From: a virus | Direction: 5' to 3' (one strand) | IMG/VR virus record: IMGVR_UViG_3300050821_001195 | Span: 1-22,039 of that record | Length of the DNA: 22,039 nucleotides | In this document: positions 2,990 through 21,249 of the stretch, in pieces | Layout: every line of letters starts with the position of its first letter | Numbering within the stretch: the stretch's first letter is position 1 | The notes under the pieces: model-generated | Database searches by the model: none | Told to the model about the DNA's origin: nothing | The model's input: only the letters and a program-made list of their open reading frames with translations | Program-made: the position numbers and the translations under genes

Positions 2990-3831
2990 TAGACAAGCTC
3001 CAGATATGCGCCAAACATCCGCCAGCTAGTAGTAGCATTATTCACTGAATGCTGAACGGAAACTTTGAATGTTTGTGTTGAAGTAGAATCCACAGTTCCT
3101 AAACCATATAACACGTTTTGACCCAAACCATTCGCATCCCAATTTCCTACGCCATGAGTCTGCGCAGTTCGATCGCCATACATTGATTCTATCACAACGA
3201 AGTTAGCATTTGTAGCACCATAATTACCAAGCACCATATCAAGAAACCAGGGAGTTAAAACTGCATTACTCGCCCAGGTTCCAGTGCTCTGATATAATAC
3301 TGAACTACCATAGTATACGCGTATAGTTATAACATTACTAGTTCCACTGGTATTTTGCTGGTCTCCAACCATTCTTAGGTGGAGATGATTTGTTGTTCCT
3401 AATGTGCCACCTGTAACAGAATAAGTATAGATAATTGTTTCTGTGGTAGTAGCAACTACATTTGTCATCCCCTGGTGATCAATTAAACTACCACCGCTAC
3501 CAGGTGCTCCTGTTGCTCCTGTTGCTCCCTGTGGCCCGATTGGACCAGGAATTTGGGGGAAATAATCATCATTATTATCATTAGGAAAGATTATACCAGC
3601 AGGACCAGCAGGACCAGGAGTTCCACCGCCTCCACCACCACTAGAAGTTATTGGATTTTTATTAAGATATGCAACAATGTTAGATGCTACACCATGAATA
3701 GCTTGACTCGAATTGAGTAGCCCCTTAATCGTTTGATACAGCGGATTGTTCGTAGATGCCACCTTACTAGCATTGAGTTGTGCTAATAAGGAAGGAATAT
3801 CCGGAACAGATGTATCAATATTAACTGCCAT
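2989..3831 (-). CDS. Collagen-like tail protein (280 aa)
   Basis: Three parts are visible. Residues 1-62 are helical with DIPSLLAQLNA and IHGVASNIVAYL, possibly a trimerising or attachment domain. Residues 65-113 hold a glycine run, a short G-X-Y stretch (GTPGPAGPAG, 70-79), an acidic loop and a second G-X-Y stretch (GPIGPQGATGATGAPG, 96-111). Residues 114-280 form a beta-rich head with HLHLRMVGDQQN and WRMFGAYLELV, like receptor-binding tips of fibres. Collagen-like stalks of this kind are known from phage fibres and trimerise. The ATG lies 11 bases inside the upstream gene; no strong binding site is seen. Confidence 0.8.
   Translation of the reverse strand: MAVNIDTSVPDIPSLLAQLNASKVASTNNPLYQTIKGLLNSSQAIHGVASNIVAYLNKNPITSSGGGGGGTPGPAGPAGIIFPNDNNDDYFPQIPGPIGPQGATGATGAPGSGGSLIDHQGMTNVVATTTETIIYTYSVTGGTLGTTNHLHLRMVGDQQNTSGTSNVITIRVYYGSSVLYQSTGTWASNAVLTPWFLDMVLGNYGATNANFVVIESMYGDRTAQTHGVGNWDANGLGQNVLYGLGTVDSTSTQTFKVSVQHSVNNATTSWRMFGAYLELV
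3499..3624 (-). repeat. Collagen-like G-X-Y stretches
   Basis: Codons for residues 70-111 of the tail protein: two G-X-Y tracts of about 3 and 5 triplets, interrupted by the acidic IFPNDNNDDYFPQI. Pro occupies X in several triplets, and Ala, Gln or Thr the Y position. Confidence 0.7.
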
Positions 3832-4123
3832 AGAACTGGGTCCAAAGTGGCTTAGCGTAAACTACTATACGATTAATTCGAAAAGTTTCATTTAAGTTCA
3901 TTGTTTCAACACGCAAAAATGCGCGCTGACTAATGAAATTTGTAAGAATTGTAGGTTCCCTACCAGGTGTCGCTTGCATTGCTATCGTAGCAAGTTGCGT
4001 AGTTTGTACCGTATCTAATGATTGAAAAGTTGACACAAGATTACCAGAACCAGTGACGCGATATTTCACTGCGCCAAAATGGCAAATTGATTCGTCGTTG
4101 CTAAGTTCAGATGTGTCAATCAT
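3821..4123 (-). CDS. Small tail-associated beta protein (100 aa)
   Basis: The product starts MIDTSELSNDESICHFGAVK and ends ETFRINRIVVYAKPLWTQFYG. The pattern of PTILTNFISQRAFLRVET followed by NETFRINRI is one I associate with small proteins encoded next to tail spikes in many phages, without a known structure. It is mainly beta, with no signal peptide or membrane segment. The ATG overlaps the spike stop as ATGA, and its stop lies 11 bases inside the next gene, so three tail genes are tightly coupled. It may be a spike chaperone, a cap or a minor virion protein. Confidence 0.7.
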   Translation of the reverse strand: MIDTSELSNDESICHFGAVKYRVTGSGNLVSTFQSLDTVQTTQLATIAMQATPGREPTILTNFISQRAFLRVETMNLNETFRINRIVVYAKPLWTQFYGS

Positions 4124-6978
4124 AAGATAAAGTATGGGTTGGGAATTGGAACTATTTCCACTGACGTAACTGGTTGTGAAGAACCTGTCCCATACTGAAT
4201 ACTATAGTAAATTGTATCATTTGTTTTACCAAGATTGATATAATATATACCGCCATTTCCAATTAGTGGAGGGGGTGGTGGTCCATTAATTAAGAAAAAT
4301 ACCTGATTATCGCTTGGGCCAAAAAATGCCGCTGGCGTTAATGTTTCAGGTGGCGCGTAAGAAGCATCCTGAAATTGTGGAACTGTTGGTGTCTGAAATA
4401 AAGTTAGTCCAGTGCTAACTTGAATGTTTAAGAAACTAGTTGTATTAGCCCCAGTTGTGGGCGTATACGCCATGACCCAGAATGAGTTGGGATCATCGAG
4501 CGCGTGTTGTATTCCCTGAACAAGATATGTTCCACCAAGTGTAATAGTATTAAGAACTGTTCCAGTTGGTGAATACTGTATTACGATAGCATTTGTATTT
4601 CTTATAAATAAAGCAAGAATTGTATCATCTTCTAGAACAAGAAGTATACTATTACTAACCCCAGCTTCAGAACCTGAAATATAGAATGACGGAGGATTAG
4701 GGAAGCTACTTAAAGCTACATTATTAATTAAATCCCATCTCCGCACCATGTAATCATTTGGCGGAGGACCAGAACCACCTGGGCTAGGCTGACCAGAAAT
4801 ATAATAAAGAATTGTATTATCGCGTGATGGCGCTATAGCCCATATACCACTATAATAAACAGTTGGTTGCCAAACTTGTGTTCCCTGTTGTCCAGTAACA
4901 GCAGAAACTGTAGTTACATATTTTCCATCATTTGAAGGAGATGTGTCCCCAGTAATATAGAAAGTTTCATCTCGGTCACTGCTAATTGCACTTGCGTAAG
5001 TAAGCTCAAATGGTGAACCAAATGAAACGTTTGGAATGGTTTGGGTGTAGCTTGTTCCATATCCTTGTAAAGCCAGTGATGGGAAAGTATTTATTATTAA
5101 AACAGTGCCATTTGGCAGGCTCTCTGCTGCATAGCCACCAGTAGCATAATTATTAACTAAATCAATAACCTGTCCTGAGACAGTAGATAAGATACAGAGT
5201 GGTAAAGAATTGTTTACATCAGGAACAGCTAACGAACCAACAGGAACAGTTGATGGAACAAATAAGCTACCTGTTATAGTAAGATTAGCTGGTGATGGAT
5301 TTCCAGAATTAGTTGCGATATGGAAATAGTAAACTGTTCCCTGAACTGTATAAAGTTCAATTGGAGCATTTGGCTGGTAACCAACAATATGGGGTGTATA
5401 GACAGTTAAATCACCATATGCCCAAATACTAACATATCCAGTTGTTAAGGCAGTATACTTATACCAGACAGCATAAGTTGTGCCACCCGAATCAACTCTT
5501 TGAGTGAGAGTATTTGAAAGTGGTCCTAGTTCAATAGCATTAGCTTGTAGAATATTTGGGGGTAAACTACCGGTCGAACCAACTCCAGCTAAGCTGCCAC
5601 TACCAGCTAATGTTCCAACACTTGGAACTAATAATGCAGCGACACCAGCTAATGCTCCACCACCACCTAAAGCACCTGTAGGACCAGCTAATGCGCGCCC
5701 TATGCCGGCTAATGCACCACCCCCAACAATTGTTCCAGCAGTAGGAACTAAAGCCTTTCCTACACCAGCTAATGAACCAATTCCAGTGATTACACCATGA
5801 TTAGCTACTGGGCTAACACCGAGTAGTGAGCCAGCACCAGTGATTGTGGCTACTGAGCCAAGATATTGATATGCACCAATAGTATATGGGACAGTGCGTG
5901 GATTTCCTGCAAAATCGATTGTTACAGCAGGAATGGTTAAACCAGCACCAATACAAAGACTAGTAGCTTGAAGTTGAAAATTTCCTGCGCCTGCATTTAC
6001 AAAGAGTGGATTACTAGTATAATTATTACGAATAGTTGCGCTACCACCGTAATCATTTATTGCTGAATTATTATTATAAACAATATTATTTTCAATGGTT
6101 GGTGCTGTGGCATAGTATTGACAATCAATGCCACCGCTACCAGTAGATGGGTTATTGTTATAGATTGTATTGTTATAGACTAACGCAGCTTTCGAATTTG
6201 AGTAAATTGATATACCACCGTAATTATCATAAATAATGTTGTTGTAGTAGAGGTTGTCCTCACCACCGTCATCGACTATTCCGTAAGATGTAGTAGTTGA
6301 CCGACCATTATTATAGATTAAGTTACCATAAGTTATACAATTATTTACATCATAAAGTCCATCATCTTCATTATTGTGAATTCCATAACCAAGATTATTA
6401 TAGATTGTGCAGTTATTAATTGTTACATCACTAGCACCAGTATTATAGATGCCATGACCATTCGTAGCAAGGCTACCAGAGCCATTACCATGAATTGCGC
6501 ATCCATAGATAGTGATGTTATTGGCAGACCCATTGTTATTAGAAAGGGAGATACCAAAATTTGGGAAGTAACGAATTGAGCAAACATTTATATTAATGTA
6601 TGAAGCTGTGCCAGAGATGTAGATACCCTGGTAATTAATATTTGATTGAAGGGAACCATCAAGGATAAGTCCCTGAATGGTGATATTCGTTTGCGTGCCA
6701 GAACTGAGATTGATGCAGTTCGTAGCATCTGGTGGTTGGATGATTACAGATTCAGAATTATAGTTAAGAATCGTGAAGTTGCCTGGAACGGTGTAAACAG
6801 TAGAATCAATTCTATTGGCTGCCCCACTATAAGTTCCTGCACGCAGGTATAGTGTATCTCCTGAAGCAAGCTGCGCCACACCATAAGATATGGTTAGCCA
6901 GGGAGAACTAATTGTGCCGGGATTAGAATTACTAGGACTACCGCCAACCCCAGCCGTATCTACGAAGTAGATTGCCAT
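4120..6978 (-). CDS. Tail spike with beta-helix, repeat linker and beta-propeller-like end
   Basis: This is the largest gene in the window (952 residues). Residues 1-370 form a right-handed parallel beta-helix of the pectate-lyase/DUF1565 kind, with repeated rungs such as NNCTIYNN, LYYNNIIYDN and LVYNNTIYNN and the opening SSPWLTISYGVAQLASGDTL. Such domains in spikes bind or cleave host surface polysaccharide. Residues 376-475 hold five 20-residue repeats (separate entry). Residues about 476-575 look like a pre-peptidase C-terminal-type beta domain (TYAVWYKYTA), and 576-952 are repeated beta units suggestive of a propeller. Enzyme residues cannot be assigned. The ATGA at its stop couples the next gene. 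No ribosome binding site is visible at the start. Confidence 0.85.
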   Translation of the reverse strand: MAIYFVDTAGVGGSPSNSNPGTISSPWLTISYGVAQLASGDTLYLRAGTYSGAANRIDSTVYTVPGNFTILNYNSESVIIQPPDATNCINLSSGTQTNITIQGLILDGSLQSNINYQGIYISGTASYININVCSIRYFPNFGISLSNNNGSANNITIYGCAIHGNGSGSLATNGHGIYNTGASDVTINNCTIYNNLGYGIHNNEDDGLYDVNNCITYGNLIYNNGRSTTTSYGIVDDGGEDNLYYNNIIYDNYGGISIYSNSKAALVYNNTIYNNNPSTGSGGIDCQYYATAPTIENNIVYNNNSAINDYGGSATIRNNYTSNPLFVNAGAGNFQLQATSLCIGAGLTIPAVTIDFAGNPRTVPYTIGAYQYLGSVATITGAGSLLGVSPVANHGVITGIGSLAGVGKALVPTAGTIVGGGALAGIGRALAGPTGALGGGGALAGVAALLVPSVGTLAGSGSLAGVGSTGSLPPNILQANAIELGPLSNTLTQRVDSGGTTYAVWYKYTALTTGYVSIWAYGDLTVYTPHIVGYQPNAPIELYTVQGTVYYFHIATNSGNPSPANLTITGSLFVPSTVPVGSLAVPDVNNSLPLCILSTVSGQVIDLVNNYATGGYAAESLPNGTVLIINTFPSLALQGYGTSYTQTIPNVSFGSPFELTYASAISSDRDETFYITGDTSPSNDGKYVTTVSAVTGQQGTQVWQPTVYYSGIWAIAPSRDNTILYYISGQPSPGGSGPPPNDYMVRRWDLINNVALSSFPNPPSFYISGSEAGVSNSILLVLEDDTILALFIRNTNAIVIQYSPTGTVLNTITLGGTYLVQGIQHALDDPNSFWVMAYTPTTGANTTSFLNIQVSTGLTLFQTPTVPQFQDASYAPPETLTPAAFFGPSDNQVFFLINGPPPPPLIGNGGIYYINLGKTNDTIYYSIQYGTGSSQPVTSVEIVPIPNPYFIL
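5554..5853 (-). repeat. Five 20-residue Gly/Ala repeats in the spike
   Basis: Residues 376-475 of the spike repeat the unit (T)I.G.GSLAGVGkALvP.aG five times: ATITGAGSLLG, VITGIGSLAGVG, TIVGGGALAGIG, ALGGGGALAGVA, TLAGSGSLAGVG. Each is about 60 bases. The unit separates beta-helix from C-terminal beta domains and could act as a flexible or glycine-rich fibrous linker. Confidence 0.75.
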
Positions 6979-7127
6979 TCATTACGCGCTTTAGTAATTC
7001 TAACCTTTAATTCTTCTGGATTAGTGATGCCTTCTGCAAGAGCTTTTTGCAGAGCAGCCATCATTACAGCTTCTAATTCTTCTTTATGTTCTCCATTTGC
7101 TAATACTCCGGTAGCTGAAACTCTCAT
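6960..7127 (-). CDS. Small helical protein (55 aa) upstream of the spike
   Basis: The stretch between the tail-fibre-like gene and the spike is coding, not intergenic. The ATG overlaps the upstream stop as ATGA and the TAG stop lies 19 bases inside the spike gene. The product starts MRVSATGVLANGEHKEELEA and ends VRITKARNEWQSTS. It is a compact helical protein with the segment ALQKALAEGITNPEELK, no membrane segment and no cysteine. Placement before a spike suggests an assembly or attachment partner, or only a coupled small gene; the function is unknown. Confidence 0.7.
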   Translation of the reverse strand: MRVSATGVLANGEHKEELEAVMMAALQKALAEGITNPEELKVRITKARNEWQSTS

Positions 7128-7561
7128 GATTCAGTTATCGAAGTTCCCGTGGTTAATTCAGGTGTGGTGCCATTTACAACAGCGATAGATGGCGAAATGG
7201 GACCAAACCAGAGAATGATACCAGCACCAGAGGAAGCCGTTCCAAGGCTGCAATAAGTCTCAGTCTCAGAGCCACCAGTAGCCGTAGGGAATACTACCGT
7301 AGATGCGGGATTAGAGACTTGTGCTGTAGCAGCAGAAAAGCCAGAAGTTGTGCGAGCCGCAGCAACACGCGCATAACTTGTATAAGCTGCTTCACTTGTA
7401 GTTTGGTTTCCAGTAGCACCTGGATTGGCTGTATGAAGCGCCCAATACAAACTGGTATATGGCGAGCTACTAGCATTTTGAGCCATACTCGTCATTGTTG
7501 TAGCATTTAAAATTAAATTAAGAAAACTATTAATAAAGCTATTTCCCTTTCCAGTTGCCAT
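7124..7561 (-). CDS. Tail-fibre-like protein (145 aa)
   Basis: The protein begins MATGKGNSFINSFLNLILNA and carries YWALHTANPGATGNQTTSEA, then YTSYARVAAARTT and a GTASSGAGIILWFG segment. From general knowledge this LALHTA.PG..G...T.EAAYT.YARV pattern is a recurrent family of small tail-associated proteins in many phages. It has an N-terminal helix for assembly and a beta-rich body. It probably attaches to the tail hub or spike. It is coupled upstream by TGATG and downstream by ATGA. Confidence 0.8.
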   Translation of the reverse strand: MATGKGNSFINSFLNLILNATTMTSMAQNASSSPYTSLYWALHTANPGATGNQTTSEAAYTSYARVAAARTTSGFSAATAQVSNPASTVVFPTATGGSETETYCSLGTASSGAGIILWFGPISPSIAVVNGTTPELTTGTSITES

Positions 7562-9024
7562 CAGCTCGCTCCAATGAGAAATTGATTGTAGTTAATCATT
7601 GCAATAGTATTGGGAGTAACATCGAATGTCCAATGAGCCCATCGAATAGATTTGAAATCTAACCCATTCGAGTAGTCACCCATTAAGATAGTTCCATCAG
7701 GCATTGAAACATATATAATTTGGTCAATGGCATCATTCATAATTTGCATATTTATAAAGCCACTACGTGCTTGGCTCATCCAATAATCTTTAACTTTCCA
7801 CGTTAGCTCAGGCCGAATATATGCGCCATTGAAAAGAATAACACCTGAAAAATCAATGATGATGAGATAGAGAAGATTGACAGCTTCACTATCTAATACT
7901 GCTGCAACCCCATGAACCGATGCGCCAACACCACTATCAACAATTGTTAAAGGCCAAGTAGATGGCACATCGCCGCTATCAGAATAGGCAAATGTGCGCG
8001 TAGACTTGAACATATAAAGTGTATCTTGAAATACTTGACCATTAGTTAGTGGCCGTGCATCTAATGGAACAATTAATAAGCCAGTTACTTGGTCCACCGC
8101 TTCCGGCTGACCCACATAGCTAACTCGTGCAAGGCTGATATTAGCATACTCAGAAAAGCTAACCAAACGATTATGATAGGTAGTAAAACCAACGCCAGCA
8201 GGAATGTTAGTAAAAAGATTGAGAAGATACGAAGCATCTTCTAATAGCTCGGCGTCATAGAACGACAGTGTGATGCTAGTCGTTGTATTGTCTGCTATTC
8301 TGCCTTCCGGAATAAAGAAAAATTCATATTGATCTTGAATATCGCCTGAAAAGAGAGTAGGTTGAATAGCTATTGTGCTTACAAGTCTACGTGCTACAAC
8401 GTAGCTTGGGCCAACTGGAATAGCAGAAATTGTAACTTCATCGCTACCTGGGTCATTGATATTTGCAAATCCCGCCAGAGCAGTGATAAATCCTGTATCA
8501 GTTTCAAAGGCGACCGCGTAAACACGCACTCCAGCCGGATTATTTCCTGAGCCGGTATTAGCTAATGTTAATGTGCCAGTAGGTGGAGCACCCCCAGCTA
8601 ATCTTGCAGGTGTTCCATCTCCTTTATAAATCCATACCGACTGATTTTGCATTCCTGTGGTGCCATTGCATGGATTAATAAAAGCGCGTCCATCAATAGC
8701 AACGAAACCAAAATCAGTCATTCCTACGATAGTTAATATGGGAGTATAAGGAGTAGGAGACTTATCGTGGAAAATATTGCCATTGCTATCAAGAATAAGA
8801 AGAGATTCGTAGGAATTAGGAACATTAAGATATACATAGTTATAAATCCGCAGAACATTACCATACGGCTCATAAGTATCTAATCCATCTCTTGTGCGTA
8901 TTCCTGATTGAATAAAAGCTACATTATTGTTATCTGGTGAATGGTCTGGTGGGCATGCTTCTGCATCGCCCCTAATATAGAGACCATTAAATTCTTCAAT
9001 TACTATTGGGTCGTGATCGCGCAT
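7561..9024 (-). CDS. Tail nozzle/stopper protein (beta-propeller-like)
   Basis: The 487 residues are beta-rich with repeated strand-turn units: FGFVAIDGRAFI, YHNRLVSFSEY, LYMFKSTRTFAY and IYVSMPDGTILMGDYSNGLD. The ordered recurrence of such blade-like units over about residues 40-470 suggests a propeller or barrel. The start (MRDHDPIVIEEFNGLYIR) and the place after the adaptor match the tail nozzle or stopper proteins of short-tailed phages (P22 gp10 or T7 gp12 type), which close the portal channel. The N-terminal NNVAFIQSGIRTRDGL is typical of these proteins in my recollection. The stop overlaps the next start as TGATG. Confidence 0.75.
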   Translation of the reverse strand: MRDHDPIVIEEFNGLYIRGDAEACPPDHSPDNNNVAFIQSGIRTRDGLDTYEPYGNVLRIYNYVYLNVPNSYESLLILDSNGNIFHDKSPTPYTPILTIVGMTDFGFVAIDGRAFINPCNGTTGMQNQSVWIYKGDGTPARLAGGAPPTGTLTLANTGSGNNPAGVRVYAVAFETDTGFITALAGFANINDPGSDEVTISAIPVGPSYVVARRLVSTIAIQPTLFSGDIQDQYEFFFIPEGRIADNTTTSITLSFYDAELLEDASYLLNLFTNIPAGVGFTTYHNRLVSFSEYANISLARVSYVGQPEAVDQVTGLLIVPLDARPLTNGQVFQDTLYMFKSTRTFAYSDSGDVPSTWPLTIVDSGVGASVHGVAAVLDSEAVNLLYLIIIDFSGVILFNGAYIRPELTWKVKDYWMSQARSGFINMQIMNDAIDQIIYVSMPDGTILMGDYSNGLDFKSIRWAHWTFDVTPNTIAMINYNQFLIGAS

Positions 9025-9299: not shown

Positions 9300-9623
9300 T
9301 TAACTAGTCGCTGAAGGATACCACTTGGAAGTGCCAGAATCATAGATAAGAGTAAAAACCTTATATCGGGTCAGCGTAACACCCAGGGCGATATTACCAG
9401 ATGTGCCAAGCGACGCCACTGACGAATCAGTCTCGTAAATATAAAGTGGCCCAACAAAGTTAGGCACGGGAAGATTAATGGTCTGAATCGCTGTAGTTCC
9501 AGTAATACGAACCACATCACCAGTCGGTGAAATAGTTGTAGTTGAAGCGACAGCAGTATTGCTTGCATTAACATAATCTACTTCACCGAATGTTTGAGTT
9601 CCTAAAGTCTGCCCAATATTCAT
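9300..9623 (-). CDS. Small beta protein, paralogue of 11581-11916
   Basis: Two in-frame ATGs exist (9629 and 9623). The second is chosen because GGAG (9630-9633) is six bases upstream of it and it overlaps the connector stop as ATGA; the first would touch the binding site. The product has 107 residues, MNIGQTLGTQTF onward. Residues 24-63 (AVASTT, GTTAI, LPVPNFVG) match residues 26-66 of the protein at 11581-11916, and both end in D-(S)-G...WY. It probably is a beta-rich virion protein, here next to connector genes. Two diverged copies in one head operon suggest two attachment sites or a specialised second copy. Confidence 0.72.
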   Translation of the reverse strand: MNIGQTLGTQTFGEVDYVNASNTAVASTTTISPTGDVVRITGTTAIQTINLPVPNFVGPLYIYETDSSVASLGTSGNIALGVTLTRYKVFTLIYDSGTSKWYPSATS

Positions 9624-10339
9624 ACCCATCTCCTGCGACCAACTATAACAAATGGTCGCCTACGTGTTCTCGCACCTTGCTTAGATTTTAATCCAATACG
9701 AATTACCCAATCAAGATTTAATGTAGCTTCTTTATCTAATTCATCAGCCCTGGTTGGATTTTCACCAAGATACCGCGCAGCCATTGCAGCCGTGCGATTA
9801 ATCATAAATTGTTGTGAATTATTAACAGCTATTACGCTACCAACTCCAGTTATATTAATTAACTTTTTAAGATAGTATACTTTGATATCTCGTGCTGTGG
9901 TGCAGCCAACAAAGAAGATATCTTCTTCACGATATGACCAGTATCTTAGGCTATCTGTAGGTTGAACATCTGGTTCCCACGCACGCCGAATCATGGGGAT
10001 AAACTGGTCTGTAGTGCCAGTTAGACGTTCTTCTAATCTTTGCGGTTCTAACATATCATCAGGAATAAGTGAATCGAATGGTGCTCCAGCAGCAGAGCCG
10101 TCCCCACCATTTCCCAATGATACAAGATTTTCTTGATTTGCATTTAATGAGATTGGGAATGGAATGATAGTGCTAATTTCTTCTAGCACTAAAGCTCCAT
10201 TCAATTCTAGCATAGACTGTAGCTCATCTCCCGCATCTTGCGCATATGGAATTAGCGCAAGATTGGTGTAGATGTTTTGGTCGGAGTCATTTAACCTCGC
10301 TACGATGCGAGGTATAATGTCTAACAGAGTGTAGCTCAT
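9620..10339 (-). CDS. Head-to-tail connector/adaptor protein
   Basis: The 239-residue protein begins MSYTLLDIIPRIVARLNDSD and has a helical N-terminal region, a middle with IRRAWEPDV and YWSYREEDIFFVGCTT, and a helical plus strongly basic C-terminus (TRRRPFVIVGRRRWV). Its size, layout and place after capsid and before the nozzle protein fit the adaptor ring under the portal of short-tailed phages (gp4- or gp11-type connectors). An Asn-rich loop precedes the segment AAMAARYLGENPTRADEL, which resembles the helical bundle of such adaptors. No single residue proves the role. It overlaps the next gene by four bases if that gene starts at 9623. Confidence 0.75.
   Translation of the reverse strand: MSYTLLDIIPRIVARLNDSDQNIYTNLALIPYAQDAGDELQSMLELNGALVLEEISTIIPFPISLNANQENLVSLGNGGDGSAAGAPFDSLIPDDMLEPQRLEERLTGTTDQFIPMIRRAWEPDVQPTDSLRYWSYREEDIFFVGCTTARDIKVYYLKKLINITGVGSVIAVNNSQQFMINRTAAMAARYLGENPTRADELDKEATLNLDWVIRIGLKSKQGARTRRRPFVIVGRRRWV
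9630..9633 (-). promoter_or_regulatory. Ribosome binding site deciding the start at 9623
   Basis: GGAG on the minus strand, six bases before the ATG at 9623 and directly touching the ATG at 9629. Spacing selects the downstream start. Confidence 0.55.
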
Positions 10340-11918: not shown

Positions 11919-13175
11919 TTAGTAACCACTTGGAATGGTCAGCGTGCTGATATAAACGCACGCAGCCGGGTTTCTAACGAATTCTTGAAATGCGATGGTA
12001 ATATAGAAAATCTGCGAGGTAGCAACGCCACCCGAAGCGCCACGTAACTCGAAAATCTTCCTACCATCTACGTCATAAAATTTACAGGGATGCATCTCTG
12101 CACGTCCCCATGTTTCTTCATAAATAAAATCAATACGTGTCTTATCCCAGGAGAATGACTCCTCAATCGGAGCACCCGCCATTTGCATATTATCGCCAAA
12201 ATACATATCTAAAGCTTCATCCTTTGGCTGCTTATGAATAATGCTGACAAGCTGTCCAACAGCTTCATAAGCCTGCTTCTGACAAGGATGCATCCATGCT
12301 TTAACTTTCTTAACCGTATCCATTCCAACGCGGTCGCCAACCTTATTACGGGCCAAGCGAGCAAATGGAAGTGTAAAGCTGCCACCAGCAGCAACATTGT
12401 TAGCGCGAATTTCAGGCGTGGTCGCACGATTGAATCCGAGCCATGTGCCAGTAGAAGCATTATTGTGATGATACTTAACCCCAAAAATAGAAGAGGGATT
12501 AGGTCCATTCAAACCAGCAACAACAACCAAATCACCAGCTACAATATTAGCAACAGTCTGGTTAATTTGAACTGTCTTATTCGCGAGGTCATAGAAAATA
12601 ATAGTAGGGAGTGTGCCAGTTGTGCGCTGAGTTCCCAGTGTAGAACTATAAATATTGATACGCATTCCATAACGCAGCAAACGAGCATTGAACCCGTCTG
12701 TGTTAAGAAGAATGGTATCATTGGTCAGGGTAGTAGTAGTGAGAGATGTAACAGTGCCCATCGTGCCTGTTCCATCAGTCATTGATAGAGAATCAAGATT
12801 ACGGCGGAACTCCTGCATTGATTTAGAAGTCAACTGACGAACTAAATCAATAATAGCTTTCCGCTTATCATCAGCAGCCCATTCTGCCTTCTTGGTCCAT
12901 TGAATAGCTTCCCGCAGAAATGCAGGCTGCAAAGTAGCTACTTGATAATTAGGACCATCACCAACGCCCAAATCACCGCCATCTGGGTCGAAATGTGCGA
13001 AATCTCCACCGGGATCTAATTCCAGTGGAATACGCATCGCACGATTAGAAACCTTAATTACAGGTCTCTTTTCGAGCTTAGCGAAGAATCTATCTTCGCG
13101 GTCGAACAGAGTGGGTAGCACTTCATCAACATGCTCCAACTCTGTTGCAACAACTTGTGCCTCATTTAACGCCAT
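11919..13175 (-). CDS. Major capsid protein (HK97-fold type)
   Basis: This 418-residue protein follows the scaffold and precedes small head-associated genes, as major capsid genes do. It starts MALNEAQVVATELEHVDEVL, has an N-terminal helical arm (residues 1-40), a long helix-rich segment around KKAEWAADDKRKAIIDLV, and a beta-rich second half with the dense strand/turn pattern of a HK97-like shell protein. From general knowledge of phage genomes its opening and its order resemble capsid proteins of short-tailed phages. An AGGGA lies eight bases before the ATG, inside the scaffold end. No cleavage site or protease gene is visible, so maturation by cleavage is not supported. Confidence 0.88.
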   Translation of the reverse strand: MALNEAQVVATELEHVDEVLPTLFDREDRFFAKLEKRPVIKVSNRAMRIPLELDPGGDFAHFDPDGGDLGVGDGPNYQVATLQPAFLREAIQWTKKAEWAADDKRKAIIDLVRQLTSKSMQEFRRNLDSLSMTDGTGTMGTVTSLTTTTLTNDTILLNTDGFNARLLRYGMRINIYSSTLGTQRTTGTLPTIIFYDLANKTVQINQTVANIVAGDLVVVAGLNGPNPSSIFGVKYHHNNASTGTWLGFNRATTPEIRANNVAAGGSFTLPFARLARNKVGDRVGMDTVKKVKAWMHPCQKQAYEAVGQLVSIIHKQPKDEALDMYFGDNMQMAGAPIEESFSWDKTRIDFIYEETWGRAEMHPCKFYDVDGRKIFELRGASGGVATSQIFYITIAFQEFVRNPAACVYISTLTIPSGY

Positions 13176-13180
13176 ATCAA

Positions 13181-14509
13181 TTATCCCTTAAGTTTGATTT
13201 TGCCTTCGAAAATGTCATCATCAGAAGTATTACGATAATCAATTTTACGTGGGTCAACATTTTTCATATTGACCTTGCCATCATTGCTCGGGCTGCGTCC
13301 AGTCCGACCCTTGTTTACAAGTTTGATATTCTTCTTATCACTGTTATCATCATCGTTACGCGCTTCACGTTGCGTAATCGCTTTACTTCGGAATTTATTT
13401 CGCACTGTAGGAATCACAGGTCTTGCGCGCTCCAGGAACGCGGAAACAATACTGGATAGACTTTCTCTGTTAAATCCCTGCTGTGCGGAACGCTTCCATA
13501 AAGAAGTCATACGTTTTAAATGAGTCTGGTCCTTGCCAACCTGACTCTTAACTTCATCTTTAATTTTTTCTAAAAGAGTATCCCGAGTAAATTCGTTCAT
13601 CTTGCCATCAGGGTCTAATCCCTGAAGAATCATTTTGTCAAGATGACGTTCTACAGCTGTGCTACAAGTTGAATATGCAGAATTATATTTCTCCTGCGCG
13701 ATTGCTGATTCTCTACGATTTAACTCTGCTTCTTTCTCAGCAATCTTAGGGTCAACAGGCTGGTCTGGCTTATCAATAGCATCACCATCTTCAAAGGCAT
13801 ACTGCATGATATTACGCGCAGTAGCAACTAATGCTTGACCAGATTCATCCTTATCATTTCGCTTCAGAATCTTATTGCCAGCATCATAAATTTGTCGAGC
13901 AAGACGCTTGACGACTGGCGTAATCATTTCCACATAAGTATTATTATCTAGTTTAGCTACAGTGTCAAGAAAACCAGTTGCGAGTTTCTTGTATGCTTCA
14001 GGAGATGCCTCATTAACAGCTCGCAGTAAATCAGTAGCATCACCCTTTTGAACTAATGCTTCATTCAGCTTATTAAATGTCTCATTATTCTCAGCAGCTT
14101 CATGAGCATCTTCTAAAGTCGGGAAGATTTCAGTATACTGAGATTCGCGATAATACGCGTTTCTCAGTTCCCTAAAATCATTTGTCTTTGCGAAGTCAGG
14201 ATACTTTTCCTTAATTTTCTTGAGGTCAACGCCACGCGCGTTAGTTACATCAAGTAAATCTTCCTTTTCTTCTTCCTCATCTTCATCTTCTTTTTCTTCT
14301 TTATCTTCTTCTAATAAATCTTCCTTATCTTCTTCATCTTCTTTTTCTTCCTTATCATCTTCTTTATCTTCCTTATCACCAAGGAGACCATCTAAAAGAT
14401 GAGTGTCATCATCTAGAAATTCCTCCTTAGGACCAGGTTTATCAAGAACTGCGCTGCCACCAGAATCAGAAGGTGGAGCATAATAAAGATACCAAATTTT
14501 TCTATTCAT
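13181..14509 (-). CDS. Scaffold-like protein with a long acidic tract
   Basis: The gene lies between portal and major capsid protein, the standard scaffold position. Its 442 residues are highly charged and helical. Residues 45-84 are an almost pure Glu/Asp/Lys tract with the repeated pieces KEDLL and DKEEKED. The middle (about 100-330) looks alpha-helical and the C-terminal region (about 355-442) is basic, with RNKFRSK and KKNIKLVNKGRTGR. An acidic body with a basic capsid-interacting end fits scaffolds, which shape the procapsid and then leave. The start is coupled to the portal stop by TAATG. A tail or DNA-binding role is less likely. Confidence 0.75.
   Translation of the reverse strand: MNRKIWYLYYAPPSDSGGSAVLDKPGPKEEFLDDDTHLLDGLLGDKEDKEDDKEEKEDEEDKEDLLEEDKEEKEDEDEEEEKEDLLDVTNARGVDLKKIKEKYPDFAKTNDFRELRNAYYRESQYTEIFPTLEDAHEAAENNETFNKLNEALVQKGDATDLLRAVNEASPEAYKKLATGFLDTVAKLDNNTYVEMITPVVKRLARQIYDAGNKILKRNDKDESGQALVATARNIMQYAFEDGDAIDKPDQPVDPKIAEKEAELNRRESAIAQEKYNSAYSTCSTAVERHLDKMILQGLDPDGKMNEFTRDTLLEKIKDEVKSQVGKDQTHLKRMTSLWKRSAQQGFNRESLSSIVSAFLERARPVIPTVRNKFRSKAITQREARNDDDNSDKKNIKLVNKGRTGRSPSNDGKVNMKNVDPRKIDYRNTSDDDIFEGKIKLKG
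14258..14377 (-). repeat. Low-complexity acidic tract (GAA/GAT/AAG codons)
   Basis: Codons for scaffold residues 45-84. On the plus strand this appears as an almost pure pyrimidine tract of repeated CTTCTTCATCTT-like units. The related blocks around KEDLL suggest growth by slippage or small tandem duplication. Confidence 0.6.
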
Positions 14510-16842
14510 TACTGTTGCCCCTGCGGTTGTGGTGGTGGCGCACCTGCTGAATGTATTACATGCAATTGCGACGGTTGTTTATTTCCCTGTGGCGGCTGCT
14601 TCTGTTGTTGCTGCTGTTGTGGTTGCGGTGGTTGCATCGATTGCAAATGTGCAACATGCTCACGCAAATGCAGAATAACATTCATGTAACCAACAGGATT
14701 AGTTTCCTTAAGATATAATCCTTCAGCGCTTACGCACCAAAGTTTAATAACCATAATATGAACATTATCATCATCGACATCAGGGTCGATAGGAACTGTA
14801 GATTGTTGCGCGTCCGGTGGGAGTTGGTCAGCATCTACTAATGATAACTTACGAAGTTCAATGAGCTGCTTTGACCTATCTTCTTCACCGGGAATATAAA
14901 ATTCGGGAAAGCCCAATGCATCTTTTGTATTCTGCGCATTATTTGGATGTAACATAATTTGCCCAATAACGGGATTTTGCATTGTTATCATTTGCATAAA
15001 TAAATCACGCTTTTGAGCCCAAGTTAATGGAAACTGCTCTGATGGGTCAGGTTCAACATTCCCGACTTTACCAGTAAGTTCAGCTTGTCGAATCCAGACA
15101 GTTTCGAATGAATTCCCATTTTGTCTAACAAATTTTTCGTCTTCAACCATTTTTGTGGCGAAGAGACGACAAGCCTTACCCAAAGTTTCTGCCCAAAGAT
15201 ACTTGATATTAGTCCAATGATTACCAAGTCTTTGTAAGGCAAAATTTCGACTTTGGTTATATTCTGTCGCAGTTTTCGACCCAGATACTTGTGACCCACC
15301 AAATATACTAGGAACTGCTCCAAGTAAGAATTGCGCATCACTATTAAGCGATTCTGCCAATTCTGTATCTTCTTCATTCATGGCCGCCGTTCTAGTTTGA
15401 AAGAAGCTTTGCGCTAATGCTTGTCCCTGTGGGGCATTAGCAAATGTTACATAACCGGGGCCAGCCATTTGCTGACGATAGGATTCCTCGTCAATAACAG
15501 AACCATCAACGAACGTTTCCGCAATACCGAATTGGTGCTTTTGTAATCCAAGATTCTTAACTTCATTATACGCGTCTTGAACATCTAATGCTGCGCGACC
15601 AATTGGGATACCATGAATAAAGCTATCAAGTGGATTAACCGTAATTGACCAGTGGTCGTCTAGCGATTCATCATAAGCGCGTGCAAAGATATCATTAACA
15701 AAGATAGCACAGCACCCATGTGGAAACTTTTTCTTTAGGTCTTTAATTGTAGTGTCTGAGTCAATGACTCCACTACGGCCAGAAAACGCCTCAAATCCCC
15801 ATTGCCGCACCCAGCAATATCTGACAGTAACTTGATTAAACAATTGGTCACTGAGGAGTTCCGAAGAAGTTCTACCCCATCGTTCGTATGAATAGAAGTC
15901 ACTTGTAGCTCGTATTTTGTCAGCGATTTCCGGGAATTCGTCTCGCGCTGCTGCATAATGCATCTCCAATTGAAGTTCTAACAATCCTACATCTTCAACC
16001 GTTTTTGCGTAAGAACTAATGCGGACGTTAAGGGGACCAAAAGACTGTATACTGATTCTACCTTTTGGAGTATCTGAATAGCCTGTAAGTCTTGGGATTG
16101 TCTCATCAAAGACTTCACCAGCTTCCGCTTGCCCCTCATATCCACAATTAGAGCAGTGATAGATTTGTTCCAGAGGTTTTTCTTGCGTAACTTGAGATTG
16201 TTCTTCTTTCGTAAGTTGGTCGTCGGCATTTTCTTGTGATGACTCATCCTGAATAGGAGAATTAGCTAAGATGGATTGACACTGCGGACAGACAATCTCC
16301 TGCATCTTAACTTGTTCATTAGTAAAGTTTGGAATTTTAACAGAACCATATTTCTCGTCGTCATCCCATGAAGTATAGGTTGCAACGAGTCCCTGATTAT
16401 AAAGAAGTGTAAGAATATGAATAAATAGTAAAGGAGCACGCGAATGCTTCTGAATTAGTTCAGAAATTAGCGAATACGCTTTGGCAGTATTAATGTCGTC
16501 AGGGTTATCAGCGTCATCAGGAAAAAAGAGAACAGATGGAATAGTAGCTGCCATCGCAGCGATGACGCTCTCTCCATATGCTCTGTAAATAGCAAAGGTC
16601 TTTGGCGGAACACTTTCATTGTCATCATCATTTCCCGTTGGCTCCTGAAAATTTGTTATATTGCGATAGTCAAGAGCTACCTCAGACCAATAGATGTATT
16701 GATTTAGGCGCCAGTATTCCTCAGCTTTCTTCCACGTGCGGATATTTCTCTCACGAATATACTGGTCATCTTTCTCCAGCATAGTTACGCAAGCCTTTAC
16801 CGCGGTCTGTTGTTCTTCTGTTAGCTTTATCTCTTTAGCCAT
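14509..16842 (-). CDS. Portal protein with an inserted zinc ribbon
   Basis: The 777-residue product lies two genes after terminase plus small ORFs and directly before scaffold and capsid, the usual place of the portal, the ring through which DNA enters and leaves the head. The size and acidic, Trp/Tyr-rich N-terminal half fit portals of short-tailed phages. An insertion at residues 185-233 has two CxxC pairs (CPQC 185-188 and CSNC 230-233) separated by 41 acidic, Gln-rich residues. The C-terminus (about 725-777) is Gln/Pro-rich with a run of six glutamines. No strong ribosome binding site is visible; the ATG follows the upstream stop by five bases. The call rests on position, size and general features rather than one diagnostic motif. 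Confidence 0.85.
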   Translation of the reverse strand: MAKEIKLTEEQQTAVKACVTMLEKDDQYIRERNIRTWKKAEEYWRLNQYIYWSEVALDYRNITNFQEPTGNDDDNESVPPKTFAIYRAYGESVIAAMAATIPSVLFFPDDADNPDDINTAKAYSLISELIQKHSRAPLLFIHILTLLYNQGLVATYTSWDDDEKYGSVKIPNFTNEQVKMQEIVCPQCQSILANSPIQDESSQENADDQLTKEEQSQVTQEKPLEQIYHCSNCGYEGQAEAGEVFDETIPRLTGYSDTPKGRISIQSFGPLNVRISSYAKTVEDVGLLELQLEMHYAAARDEFPEIADKIRATSDFYSYERWGRTSSELLSDQLFNQVTVRYCWVRQWGFEAFSGRSGVIDSDTTIKDLKKKFPHGCCAIFVNDIFARAYDESLDDHWSITVNPLDSFIHGIPIGRAALDVQDAYNEVKNLGLQKHQFGIAETFVDGSVIDEESYRQQMAGPGYVTFANAPQGQALAQSFFQTRTAAMNEEDTELAESLNSDAQFLLGAVPSIFGGSQVSGSKTATEYNQSRNFALQRLGNHWTNIKYLWAETLGKACRLFATKMVEDEKFVRQNGNSFETVWIRQAELTGKVGNVEPDPSEQFPLTWAQKRDLFMQMITMQNPVIGQIMLHPNNAQNTKDALGFPEFYIPGEEDRSKQLIELRKLSLVDADQLPPDAQQSTVPIDPDVDDDNVHIMVIKLWCVSAEGLYLKETNPVGYMNVILHLREHVAHLQSMQPPQPQQQQQQKQPPQGNKQPSQLHVIHSAGAPPPQPQGQQ
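16144..16290 (-). other. Split zinc-ribbon insertion in the portal
   Basis: This codes for portal residues 185-233: CPQC, 41 residues rich in Glu, Gln, Asp and Ser, then CSNCGYEG. Two CxxC knuckles with the second followed by G-Y/E are typical of zinc ribbons. Zinc binding is inferred. Confidence 0.65.
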
Positions 16843-17732: not shown

Positions 17733-18111
17733 TTTCCATTACCTCAACTTCTGGTTTTTCGAGAGCTTGAATACGCGCTTCATAATCAGCTCTACGCTTA
17801 GCACTTAATAATGTAGCTTCTTGCGCATCTTTTCGTTCAGCATGACGAATACGCGCTCCCATAGAATTAATATTGCGAGGTATGCTATGCATTTCACCAG
17901 ATGATTCACGCGCTACGCGATTCATTCCAGTAATATGCTTAATGATATCATTCATATCATCGTGATGAATACGAACTTCATTTTCCCACTTTTCATCACG
18001 AGAATGCAGTTCTTGCTGGAGCAATGCTATTGTAACATCACGCGCTTCGCAAGCTGCGCATCTTTTTACGAAGAGTTCTCGAAAAGCTACCAGCACGCTT
18101 CGCAAATCCAC
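17719..18111 (-). CDS. Charged coiled-coil protein overlapping the terminase end
   Basis: The open frame reaches up to a TTG at 18132, but the best start is the GTG at 18111, six bases after a GGAG (18118-18121); that gives 130 residues. The first 74 bases lie inside terL in another frame. The protein is rich in Arg, Glu and Ala, with heptad-like helix over about residues 25-60 and again near the end (KRRADYEARIQALEK). A CAAC pair sits in the overlap-coded part. An ATG at 18038 that would couple exactly to the terminase stop is in a different frame and closes at once, so the overlap appears real. No family was recognised. It ends inside the start of the next gene. Confidence 0.65.
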   Translation of the reverse strand: MDLRSVLVAFRELFVKRCAACEARDVTIALLQQELHSRDEKWENEVRIHHDDMNDIIKHITGMNRVARESSGEMHSIPRNINSMGARIRHAERKDAQEATLLSAKRRADYEARIQALEKPEVEVMENGVQ

Positions 18112-19765
18112 GCTTAGCTCCAGTTCTTTCAATTAATTCCATCTTGCGATAGTAAGCTGTTTGATTTCCAGTTGTAGCAAGTTCAGCTACAACCTTTTGT
18201 TCACGCGCTCGATATTCAAATTCATTCGCAGATTCTTTAATGAATCTATCTACGCGCTTTAATAAATATCGTAGACAATCGTATGGGTCATCACCAACTT
18301 GCGAATCTGATACTTGCCATTCCTTAACATCTTCGACATTCTTATCATCATAAATGCATAGCGGGATGCATTCGATAAGTTGCTTACAGGTGTCGAAAAT
18401 CTGAAGGCGCGGTAAGTTTTGTTCGATAGCTGGTGGTTCGAATAATTCAATGTAGCGTTGCCACGCAGTTTCTGATAATCGCTTTAATCGTAACGATTCT
18501 TCATAATCAAACGTCTTGCCAGGGTCATGCTGAAATGTTGGTTTCGGCTTCCAACGTAGATATTCCTGAACCAACACTTTACCTGAGATTCTACCTTTCG
18601 TCGCTTGTTCTGCTTGTAGAACGCCACTAAAGGCTGCTGTAAAATGTTCTTGAAATTGCTGAGCAATAGTCTTAGGTTCACCACGTGACTCCCACGCGTT
18701 CGTATCTAAATCTAAGCAACGAATATTTTCTCCACGCGATAATTCCCCAATTTCCGTAGCCCACACCGCGACTTCTGTTTCCCGCACATAATATTCGCGG
18801 TAAATGAAAACTCTACCTTCTGGAGATATCGCTGCCCAATATGCCACAGTTGCAGCTTTAAAACCCCAGTCAATCGCCAGAATTCGCGGCCACCAATGTG
18901 GTATTTCCTGGGCTGGTATAACATGCAGTGCATTATCGGGCTCGTCCGGATAATGTCTGGCACGAAATGAATCAAATACTTGACCTGAGAATGTCCACCA
19001 ATCTCCGTAGAGCTTCGCTGCTTTTTCTGCTTCCGGCAGCATTTCGAGCTTAACAAGATAGTCTGGGTCATTTTTCAGGAGATATGGGTTATCAGTAGCT
19101 AATGCTTTAATAAATATTCGCTGGATAAACTTTCGATTGCCAGCCCCATCGAGTATGTAATTTCCGGCCTTATCAAAGAAGTATTGGCGAATAATCTTTC
19201 CTCCATCTTTGTAAGGTTCAACGAATCTTTTTCTAACCCATCCATGTCCAATATTTCCGGGATTTGATGCGGAGAATACGATAGATGGTAAATCTTCATC
19301 TGCGGGCCTGCACCTCGAAATCATGTAGATATATTGAAACTCTACAAATGAAGTTAACTCTTCAAAAAATTCATATGAGAATTGTTCTGTATCATACTTA
19401 CGAACATCATCTTCGTGTTCTGCGGCAGATAGATACATCTGCGCGCCCCACGGCCATGTCCATACGCGATCAGTTTTATTATAAGTAGCGCCAGTCTGGG
19501 GATAAAATCCTTGACAACGCTTAACTAATTCTTTCTTTAACTCAGGAATTGTGCGACGCATGATGATTCCCTTAAATAAGGGATGCTGATACATCATGCG
19601 GTCGCTATATCTGCACTTCTTCATTAGTGGTAGAACTACACCACAATCTGTCTTACCAGGTCCAGCAGCACCACCAAAGAATGTTTCCAAAACAGTATTA
19701 GGCACACTAATAGCCTGTTCCTGTTTAGGATGCGGTCGCCAATCTCTTTTGATGCTGTCAAACAT
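18038..19765 (-). CDS. terL: Terminase large subunit (packaging ATPase and nuclease)
   Basis: This is the motor protein that translocates phage DNA through the portal and cuts it. Of 575 residues, the N-terminal ATPase has a Walker A-like GGAAGPGKT (31-39), a Walker B region YEFFEEL (131-137) and a coupling motif SASNPG (165-170). The C-terminal RNase H-like nuclease shows IDWGF (D299), LDLDTN (D352, D354) and DDPYDCLR (D492, D493, D496). The length and motif order are complete for the family. The start is coupled by TAATG to the small upstream gene. The last 74 bases overlap the next gene, whose GTG start and ribosome binding site lie inside terL. Confidence 0.95.
   Translation of the reverse strand: MFDSIKRDWRPHPKQEQAISVPNTVLETFFGGAAGPGKTDCGVVLPLMKKCRYSDRMMYQHPLFKGIIMRRTIPELKKELVKRCQGFYPQTGATYNKTDRVWTWPWGAQMYLSAAEHEDDVRKYDTEQFSYEFFEELTSFVEFQYIYMISRCRPADEDLPSIVFSASNPGNIGHGWVRKRFVEPYKDGGKIIRQYFFDKAGNYILDGAGNRKFIQRIFIKALATDNPYLLKNDPDYLVKLEMLPEAEKAAKLYGDWWTFSGQVFDSFRARHYPDEPDNALHVIPAQEIPHWWPRILAIDWGFKAATVAYWAAISPEGRVFIYREYYVRETEVAVWATEIGELSRGENIRCLDLDTNAWESRGEPKTIAQQFQEHFTAAFSGVLQAEQATKGRISGKVLVQEYLRWKPKPTFQHDPGKTFDYEESLRLKRLSETAWQRYIELFEPPAIEQNLPRLQIFDTCKQLIECIPLCIYDDKNVEDVKEWQVSDSQVGDDPYDCLRYLLKRVDRFIKESANEFEYRAREQKVVAELATTGNQTAYYRKMELIERTGAKRGFAKRAGSFSRTLRKKMRSLRSA
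18118..18121 (-). promoter_or_regulatory. Ribosome binding site deciding the GTG start inside terL
   Basis: GGAG on the minus strand, six bases (CTAAGC) before the GTG at 18111. It lies within the terL coding sequence and is the reason for choosing this start over TTG 18132. Confidence 0.5.
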
Positions 19766-19965
19766 TAGGAAGTGACTTCAGATGCAACAACAGTCGGTTG
19801 AGTAATGCTCACTGCTGGCGTAGATGCTGCAACCTTATTAAGTCCAATAGATACTGCTGAATGAAGTAATGTAGGATTCTTTAGAATCATATTAAGAACT
19901 GCTGTGATAATCTGCTCGACGATTGCTGGATTCTTTTCGATATAGTTAATAATGAATTGTAACAT
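19765..19965 (-). CDS. Small hydrophobic helical protein coupled to terminase (66 aa)
   Basis: The start is well supported by a GAGGGGAAG-type ribosome binding site directly before the ATG. The protein starts MLQFIINYIEKNPAIVEQII and has two amphipathic or hydrophobic helices (about residues 1-23 and 24-46), then a Ser/Thr/Val-rich tail. Its stop overlaps the terminase start as TAATG. The position suggests a small terminase subunit, but it is much shorter than typical ones and shows no DNA-binding helix-turn-helix, so that is not called. A small membrane-active or holin-like protein is the alternative. Confidence 0.6.
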   Translation of the reverse strand: MLQFIINYIEKNPAIVEQIITAVLNMILKNPTLLHSAVSIGLNKVAASTPAVSITQPTVVASEVTS

Positions 19966-19973
19966 CTTCCCCT

Positions 19974-20579
19974 CTAAGATGTTCCGGCGACTGTTGCTTT
20001 TGCATCTATAATTTCGAAATGATTCTTATCTGCAATTGCATAACCACCATGTTCTGTGGTTTTCTTATTGTCTGCTAAAGTATGTTTATCGAAGTCAGGT
20101 GCCAAATTACCTTTCTTCATATACGCGTCACTTAATATAATATTTCGCCCATGCGTTACAAAAATTACCGTATCTTTAGATTTGCTTCTTAAATACTGTT
20201 CGAAGAATGGTAGATATTGTTTAGCCCAATCATTTACCGATTGCCCCCCTGGGATTTTTTCAGAGGGATTATTAAGATAATACTTAAACTCTTTAATATG
20301 TGAATCAATAGGCTTACCAACGAATTTGCCACTATCAAGGGGTTTAAGTGGTGGAGCGGCTTTCATTGGTAAGCCTAACTCAGTTGATAAAATTTTCGCT
20401 GTATCTCTACAACGACTTAAAGGAGAATAATAGATTATTTCTGCGTGATATTGTTTTAGTTCTTTTGCGAGCGCGTATGCTTCTTGCCTACCACTGGAAG
20501 TGAGCGGCTCATCCTTTAGGCCATGAAACTTGCCTTTAGTATTAGCCGCATCACCATGACGCCCGAGAACTATCCTCAT
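19974..20579 (-). CDS. Histidine phosphatase superfamily protein (phosphoglycerate mutase-like)
   Basis: The 201-residue protein opens with the family signature RHG (R7, H8, G9); H8 is the residue that would be phosphorylated. The second conserved Arg lies in SPLSRCRDTA (R56), an acidic residue sits in PLDSGKFVG (D82), and the second catalytic His lies in FVTHGRNI (H143). The full catalytic set therefore appears intact and the length is normal for a single-domain member. The family removes phosphate from small metabolites, sugar phosphates, nucleotides or proteins; the substrate cannot be read from sequence. It sits in a TAATG-coupled string of phage genes just upstream of terminase, which is an unusual setting for an enzyme. 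It ends eight bases before the next start. Confidence 0.88.
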   Translation of the reverse strand: MRIVLGRHGDAANTKGKFHGLKDEPLTSSGRQEAYALAKELKQYHAEIIYYSPLSRCRDTAKILSTELGLPMKAAPPLKPLDSGKFVGKPIDSHIKEFKYYLNNPSEKIPGGQSVNDWAKQYLPFFEQYLRSKSKDTVIFVTHGRNIILSDAYMKKGNLAPDFDKHTLADNKKTTEHGGYAIADKNHFEIIDAKATVAGTS

Positions 20580-21016
20580 TACCCAAAGTATCCATTATAA
20601 TTAGGCTGCCCCTTAATACCTGCAATTAACTTACCTTGGAAATAAGCTGGGTCGCTAGAACCCCACGCGTCCCAATCAGTAACCCAATATTGTCCATTAT
20701 CAATGTTAGCAACACCTGCAATAAGAATATACTGATTAACCAAAGCGCGAACTTGGTCATCAGTCATTCCACTAACGAATGATGCTAATGCGACAGGCGG
20801 TGTGGGGGTTGAAGGGGGCGCGGGGACTGCTGGCGAAACTGGAACCAACGTGATGGGAATAGTTGAATCTAATGATAGATTCTTATAGGGCTGATTTACA
20901 TATGGCGCGTAACCAGCGACGGTCACGCTGATATTTGCAGAATTAGGTAACTCAACAGTTACTTGAAATTCTGCAACTAAATTTCCATTGGGGTCTTTTG
21001 CAATGATTGAAATCAT
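20579..21016 (-). CDS. PEGA-like protein carrying a WGSSDP module
   Basis: The 145 residues fall into three parts. Residues 1-62 look like a PEGA or carboxypeptidase-regulatory-like beta domain (VTVAGYAPY, then STIPITLVPV). Residues 63-78 form a Pro-rich linker. Residues 84-134 carry a module with LVNQYI, DNGQYW and WGSSDPAYF, which recurs at residues 142-192 of the virion-type protein at 590-1810. There is no signal peptide. An AGGTG lies upstream of the ATG, which overlaps the upstream stop as ATGA. Sharing the module with a probable virion protein suggests that this is also a particle component or a partner of one; that is inference. Confidence 0.7.
   Translation of the reverse strand: MISIIAKDPNGNLVAEFQVTVELPNSANISVTVAGYAPYVNQPYKNLSLDSTIPITLVPVSPAVPAPPSTPTPPVALASFVSGMTDDQVRALVNQYILIAGVANIDNGQYWVTDWDAWGSSDPAYFQGKLIAGIKGQPNYNGYFG
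20615..20767 (-). repeat. Copy 1 of the shared 51-residue WGSSDP module
   Basis: This encodes residues 84-134 of the PEGA-like protein. Aligned with 1235-1387 it keeps QV..LVNQYI, GV.N.DNG.YW, W..WGSSDP.YF and a final GI. The DNA has diverged, so this is an old protein-level duplication or independently acquired module, not a recent DNA repeat. Confidence 0.75.
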
Positions 21017-21249
21017 ATCTGCACCTGTAACTCTTTGATTTTCTTCAGCTCAGATTCCAATTCCTTAATTCGTTCTGCCTTAGTGACTCTTAGTTCAACT
21101 AATTCAGTTTGTAGTTCTTCAATCTTATCTAAGGCAGCTTGTAATTTGCCATTGACAATAACCTTAATTGAATGGCCCTGTGAATGATTATAATAACCAA
21201 ACACTGCTGCAATGATAGCAGCTATTGCCCCTACTATATGAGAATCCAT
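21013..21249 (-). CDS. Membrane-anchored coiled-coil protein (holin or inner spanin candidate)
   Basis: This 78-residue protein has one N-terminal hydrophobic segment, about residues 5-20 (IVGAIAAIIAAVFGYY), followed by a highly charged helix of about residues 34-76, rich in Lys, Glu and Leu with heptad spacing (KIEELQTELVELR). One membrane anchor plus a coiled coil is the layout of inner-membrane spanins and of some class III holins. The start is supported by GGAG seven bases upstream and by TAATG coupling. It neighbours a secreted protein, which fits an envelope or lysis role. The endolysin lies about 18 kb away at 2187-2618, so a lysis assignment stays tentative. Confidence 0.7.
   Translation of the reverse strand: MDSHIVGAIAAIIAAVFGYYNHSQGHSIKVIVNGKLQAALDKIEELQTELVELRVTKAERIKELESELKKIKELQVQI

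Follow-up and report, generated by a model that had tools for sequence, protein, structure and literature searches.

The window analysed here is a full virus record of 22,039 bases with a late gene block on its minus strand, in which a spike gene adjoins genes for tail components. Within this block lie genes for the terminase large subunit (18038-19765), a putative portal or connector (14509-16842) and a putative major head protein (11919-13175), the latter two assigned by weak matches, together with a SU10-adaptor-like gene (9620-10339, match below cut-off) and a cell wall hydrolase (2187-2618). The tail protein gene at 7561-9024 probably encodes a nozzle, a name that we infer; it has homologues in 30 loci and matches a virion structural PHROG family (E = 7.5e-4). 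The spike cassette is located just after it and consists of a short fibre gene of the Podophage GP4 fiber I protein gp80 family (7124-7561; PF23140, E = 4.8e-15, over cut-off) and the adjoining spike gene (4120-6978), which encodes 952 amino acids from ATG to stop. A 100-aa gene (3821-4123) follows; all of these genes are on the minus strand. In kuraviruses such as SU10, the nozzle protein bears a propeller and serves as the docking site of short fibres (PMC9509320). Upstream of the terminase lies a gene of the histidine phosphatase superfamily (19974-20579; PF00300, E = 5.2e-28), and a TCT-rich low-complexity tandem repeat (14258-14378; Tandem Repeats Finder (TRF) score up to 148) is found inside a 442-aa open reading frame at 13181-14509.

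The 100-aa gene corresponds to the C-terminal ca. 90 residues of the longer 7561-9024-type tail protein of relatives. Of the 16 loci that match it, 12 have this sequence fused to the tail protein and 4 have it as a separate gene; in locus L183 a similar-looking 102-aa gene is instead located ahead of the tail gene. The two tail-protein pieces of the window are separated by the spike and Gp80 genes, as if a cassette had split the tail gene.

The N-terminal part of the spike is a right-handed beta-helix spanning residues 3 to 372 (approximately; 5863-6972, minus strand), with its N-terminal limit set by eye. PF13229 matches at E = 3.5e-13 and 49.9 bits against a curated cut-off of 25.9, best over residues 154-319, so that the beta-helix proposed in the earlier note is borne out. 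Right-handed beta-helices are the usual fold of spikes that bind or cleave polysaccharides. Residues 328-372 resemble the choice_anch_Q model NF041518 below its cut-off (E = 0.0013, 18.9 bits, cut-off 25), and because of this resemblance the helix appears, from sequence, to close at residue 372, just before the repeats. Neither the whole spike nor its N-terminal half has a direct homologue in the viral contigs searched or among cultured phages, where the low-complexity filter may hide repeats, and a sequence search of the spike protein against the PDB returned no match. As in the right-handed beta-helix tailspikes and depolymerases (PF13229; the beta-helix class of DepoScope, PMC11326577), the helix is encoded in a phage tail gene; unlike in those proteins, no virion-binding domain precedes it at the N-terminus, the helix starting near residue 3, and the conserved module is C-terminal.

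Five Gly/Ala-rich repeats of 20 residues follow the beta-helix at residues 376-475 of the 952-aa reading frame, precisely at the position given earlier (5554-5853, minus strand). Their GxG[SA]LxG cores start at residues 381, 399, 419, 439 and 459. There are five copies, as had been claimed, but their regularity is imperfect, with core spacings of 18, 20, 20 and 20 residues and a degenerate second half of the fifth unit. Identity at lag 20 is 0.40, whereas 2000 composition shuffles reached at most 0.33 at any lag from 5 to 39. This regularity exists at the protein level only: the copies are 27-62% identical in DNA bases, and TRF returned nothing at a score of at least 30 on this array. The suggestion that the length of the window's array is tuned by slippage consequently does not hold, since DNA copies this diverged are no present substrate for it.

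Each repeat alternates L, G, G, L and G on one strand face (L-x-G-x-G-x-L-x-G), and this alternation suggests a predicted beta strand with its glycines on one face. An AlphaFold2 single-sequence model of the whole spike was unusable (pLDDT 35). Profile searches of the PDB gave weak hits to Hap (3syj, E = 0.0075), 3lyc (a putative pectinase, E = 0.012) and 3jx8 (E = 0.63), the first two of which we take to be beta-helical structures. These hits are in line with a beta-solenoid for the repeats and fall short of proof. Filamentous haemagglutinin has a 20-residue beta-helical repeat (TIGR01731) with a period close to that of the viral repeat; the model has no match in the window's array and reaches a non-significant E = 0.31 in one of 37 family members. 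An origin from DUF2807/Toastrack (PF10988), a candidate prompted by the weak PDB hits, is not supported: the window's array has no Pfam match and its HHalign probability to the DUF2807 alignment is 0.04. DUF2807 does share a period near 20 and a G-x-G that is surrounded by small residues and lies between two aliphatic ones, and isolated members of the repeat family match it (3.3e-7, and 0.0021 in L172).

The window's array is a member of a virus-enriched family of 20-residue repeats. Judged by sequence profile, it scores 47.2 bits, with a bias of 31 already subtracted, against a viral-repeat HMM from whose construction it was excluded, while the best of 500 shuffles scores 7.0 bits. The HMM was built from 36 of 52 family blocks, using for each protein the sub-blocks most like the window's, a choice that flatters the score somewhat, and the shuffles control for composition rather than for this choice. 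The family consensus, seen in virus contigs, is roughly x-G-T-L-T-G-x-G-x-L-x-G-x8. A DNA pattern with two GxG[..]LxG cores at a distance of exactly 60 bases occurs in at least 119 viral and at least 119 genome-contig stretches. Among the matches listed, 93 of 119 viral stretches contain at least 2 in-frame core pairs at a spacing of 20 compared to 4 of 119 genomic stretches; as the two collections differ in size, these are fractions of listed hits and not frequencies. Four of the 119 viral hits (L077, L138, L159 and L171) were judged to be non-arrays and excluded from later analyses. In 95 non-redundant proteins, all selected for at least one core pair at spacing 20, the distance between neighbouring cores is 20 residues in 336 cases, 40 in 66 and 60 in 27. 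Arrays range from 2-3 to more than 20 cores, with 23 in L134. Two of the four genomic arrays (L271 and L284) are located on the chromosome of Phycicoccus sp. HDW14, at ca. 0.85 and 4.05 Mb, with an array sequence equal to that of viral locus L091 in the stretch compared.

The repeat was covered by no Pfam or NCBIfam model among 89 proteins scanned against Pfam and 37 family members scanned against NCBIfam. The Pfam scan comprised 89 of the 95 proteins, leaving out L130, L084 and L125 for their length and L119, L124 and L099 for having few or no cores. Eight Pfam families were found in these array proteins (apiosidase, its partner, LamG, fn3, Fn3-like, beta-helix, DUF2807 and Bflower_3). We read them as flanking or chance domains, having inspected the position of only some of them: apiosidase, fn3 and LamG are located outside the cores, and matches below cut-off to DUF2807 in L172 and to Bflower_3 in L168 overlap array regions. 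The 20-residue array of L135 (3295-6549) has repeats both before and after an apiosidase-like glycoside hydrolase and collagen-binding domain. Among the PHROG families matched by array proteins are those of tail fibre, minor tail and virion structural proteins. Of ten genes sampled next to arrays and compared with PHROG, two encode portal/head-morphogenesis proteins, and one each a major head protein, an integrase and a transferase-like protein; because the other five were without a match, only a part of the family has an established tail context. Two further array proteins gave no homologues in a search of cultured phages. No description of the 20-residue repeat was found in the open-access literature searched, and it is apparently an undescribed, though not fundamentally new, kind of repeat.

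The C-terminal half of the spike is a separate conserved module that combines a probable beta-sandwich, a beta-propeller-like domain and a short conserved tail. Residues 472-952 (approximately) are common to the window and seven relatives (L047, L054, L058, L180, L183, L184/L186 and L185), with L047, L054 and L058 found by BLASTP among 59 loci of relatives. The first part of the module (residues ca. 472-577; 5248-5565) is common to all eight proteins, contains strands in an AlphaFold2 model and by eye is reminiscent of a PPC domain. It is followed by the propeller-like domain (residues ca. 578-903; 4270-5247) and the tail (residues 905-952; 4123-4266), which carries the motif GIYxI..K.NDT ... 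IPxP. A prealbumin-like insert (SpaA_4/DUF5979) is present just before the tail in four of the eight proteins (L047, L054, L180 and L184) and is matched by Pfam DUF5979 in three module proteins. No Pfam family covers the module, and searching the PDB with its sequence gave nothing convincing. Modelled alone from eight alignment rows, the module reached a mean pLDDT of 55.8 and a pTM of 0.54. VIA-align 2 aligned this model of moderate quality with beta-propellers over ca. 250-290 residues at Z-scores of 16.2-18.1 in the rows shown, fold names being taken from PDB entry titles, and Foldseek returned 296 PDB matches at E ≤ 0.001 with low TM-scores as well as viral propeller-like proteins. The propeller-like C-terminus proposed in the earlier note is thus supported as a predicted fold. 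Propeller-bearing phage proteins reportedly include the K1F endosialidase (PMC12632334) and a protein of phage phi11 (PMC4901313). The window's protein resembles propeller receptor-binding proteins and depolymerases (the DepoScope propeller class, PMC11326577) in having a propeller in a tail spike or receptor-binding protein, and differs from them in that the propeller belongs to a constant module joined by a repeat array to a second beta module.

The sequence preceding the module varies between relatives, indicating a modular architecture. In L047, L180 and L184 the module starts at or near Met1, with nothing before it. L054, L183 and L185 possess a LamG-like N-terminus (L183 to L185 at 4e-7, L054 to both at 0.004-0.005; a Pfam LamG match is seen only in L054, below cut-off), and L058 carries another N-terminal domain. 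BLASTP shows no relationship among the N-termini of the window's spike, the L058 protein and the LamG-like proteins. Neither the beta-helix nor the repeats were found in any of the seven relatives, no relative has both, and the best hit of the repeat HMM in 4,023 frames, taken from 67 loci of relatives, has E = 0.74. The presence of the C-terminal module without repeats in all seven relatives, combined with the helix end at about residue 372 (a match below cut-off), upholds the earlier placement of the repeats between two separate beta modules. The genomic location is constant as well: in each of the seven relatives, the module gene comes after a homologue of the 7561-9024 tail gene (homology judged by eye for L180, L183, L184 and L185).

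Overall, we favor a mosaic spike of a short-tailed phage, to which we assign a probability of roughly 0.5, with a virion-bound C-terminal base, an exchangeable N-terminal beta-helix and a beta-rich stalk formed by the repeats. The C-terminal module, consisting of beta-sandwich, beta-propeller and 48-residue tail, would serve as the constant base. Virion attachment is most probably located here, because this module is the sole part common to all eight proteins. The N-terminal module would be exchangeable and is read as the receptor domain because it is variable, as receptor domains are; in the window's spike this module is the beta-helix, whose target would probably be a sugar. The five repeats would act as a stalk holding the beta-helix away from the base once the protein is assembled into the virion. 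Known tailspikes attach by their N-terminus, which makes a C-terminal attachment unusual. A conventional N-terminally anchored podovirus tailspike was considered and rejected, given N-termini unrelated by BLASTP and three relatives without any N-terminal addition. Beta-helix and propeller are the two most common phage depolymerase folds according to the DepoScope study (PMC11326577), and the spike is for this reason a new combination of known parts.

The polarity of the spike could also be the opposite, with the C-terminal propeller serving as a distal receptor-binding or sugar-cleaving domain that is common to the eight proteins through a shared host receptor, and with the spike attached by other means such as a Gp80-like fibre or a chaperone. 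We consider this doubtful, yet it is the strongest competitor. The prominence of propellers, next to beta-helices, among depolymerase folds (PMC11326577, as above) is compatible with it, as is the divergence of the module, where mean pairwise identity across the eight proteins is only 0.24-0.27 outside the tail, as might be expected of a fast-evolving binding face. However, only this module is common to all eight proteins, three of which lack an N-terminal addition to attach by, and the near-invariant last 48 residues (mean pairwise identity 0.50, the highest in the module) look, from their sequence, like a docking element. The C-terminal module thus more probably holds the virion anchor, and it may combine anchoring and binding.

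Alternatively, the repeats might continue the helix as additional coils of 20 residues, in the same beta-solenoid or another one, and would then not be a separate spacer. Twenty residues is a normal coil length, and both the alternation of L and G on one strand face and the weak profile matches to 3syj, 3lyc and 3jx8, the first two beta-helical, are compatible with such coils. This reading is unlikely given that the helix seems to end at residue 372 with the choice_anch_Q-like segment (sub-threshold), that the repeats occur beside unrelated domains in other proteins and that HHalign offers the negligible DUF2807 probability mentioned above. Highly improbable is a glycine-zipper-like segment entering the host membrane at infection: the window's stretch is 27% Gly and 2% charged with a top 19-residue Kyte-Doolittle mean of 1.71, a value reached by only 5 of 52 family blocks, but arrays of the family mostly contain more Ser/Thr, are less hydrophobic (mean 1.31) and their strict 20-residue period shows the alternating positions typical of beta strands.

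In the mosaic spike favored here, the stalk would be drawn from a pool of repeats widespread in phage tail proteins, and the virus-enriched repeat is more interesting than the spike itself. Arrays of this pool may grow or shrink by whole 20-residue units, which would change reach stepwise while the fold is kept. More tentatively, and as a possibility we would rate below the mosaic spike, this unmodelled 20-residue beta repeat could be a general, stepwise-adjustable stalk in the tail proteins of many unrelated phages, here combined with a C-terminally anchored and N-terminally exchangeable spike of reversed polarity. If the repeat is a stalk varied by whole units, it would give phages a simple means to tune the reach of their receptor domains, and a single motif could flag dozens of unannotated phage proteins as tail fibres. 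A C-terminally anchored spike, if true, would also alter the sequence-based prediction of receptor-binding parts, because most schemes assume an N-terminal anchor.

Length differences of whole units occur in the wider repeat family, as judged from aligned sequences. The idea of a changeable repeat length therefore stands for some pairs of this family and fails in its specific form, slippage in the window's array. Ten indels of at least 10 residues were found in nine array pairs, six of which were picked for having gaps, and in seven of the ten the length is a whole multiple of 20 (20 residues in six cases, 60 in one), the others measuring 18, 14 and 10 residues; the indels are not necessarily all inside arrays. 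Whole-unit differences are present in four of the nine pairs and absent in five, including pairs at 74% and 80% identity. Period-60 DNA repeats are detected by TRF in 37 of 115 other arrays and not in the window's. The array protein at 6199-9177 of L069 is 69% identical to that of L135, the two being distinguished by three insertions that are each exactly 20 residues long.

Collagen-like repeats of phage fibres (PF01391) likewise form a Gly-rich spacer within a fibre, but differ from the 20-residue repeat in period and residue pattern. In L054, the closest relative of the window's phage, a 986-aa fibre gene with collagen repeats (18102-21062; PF01391, E = 3.4e-48) is located two genes after the spike.
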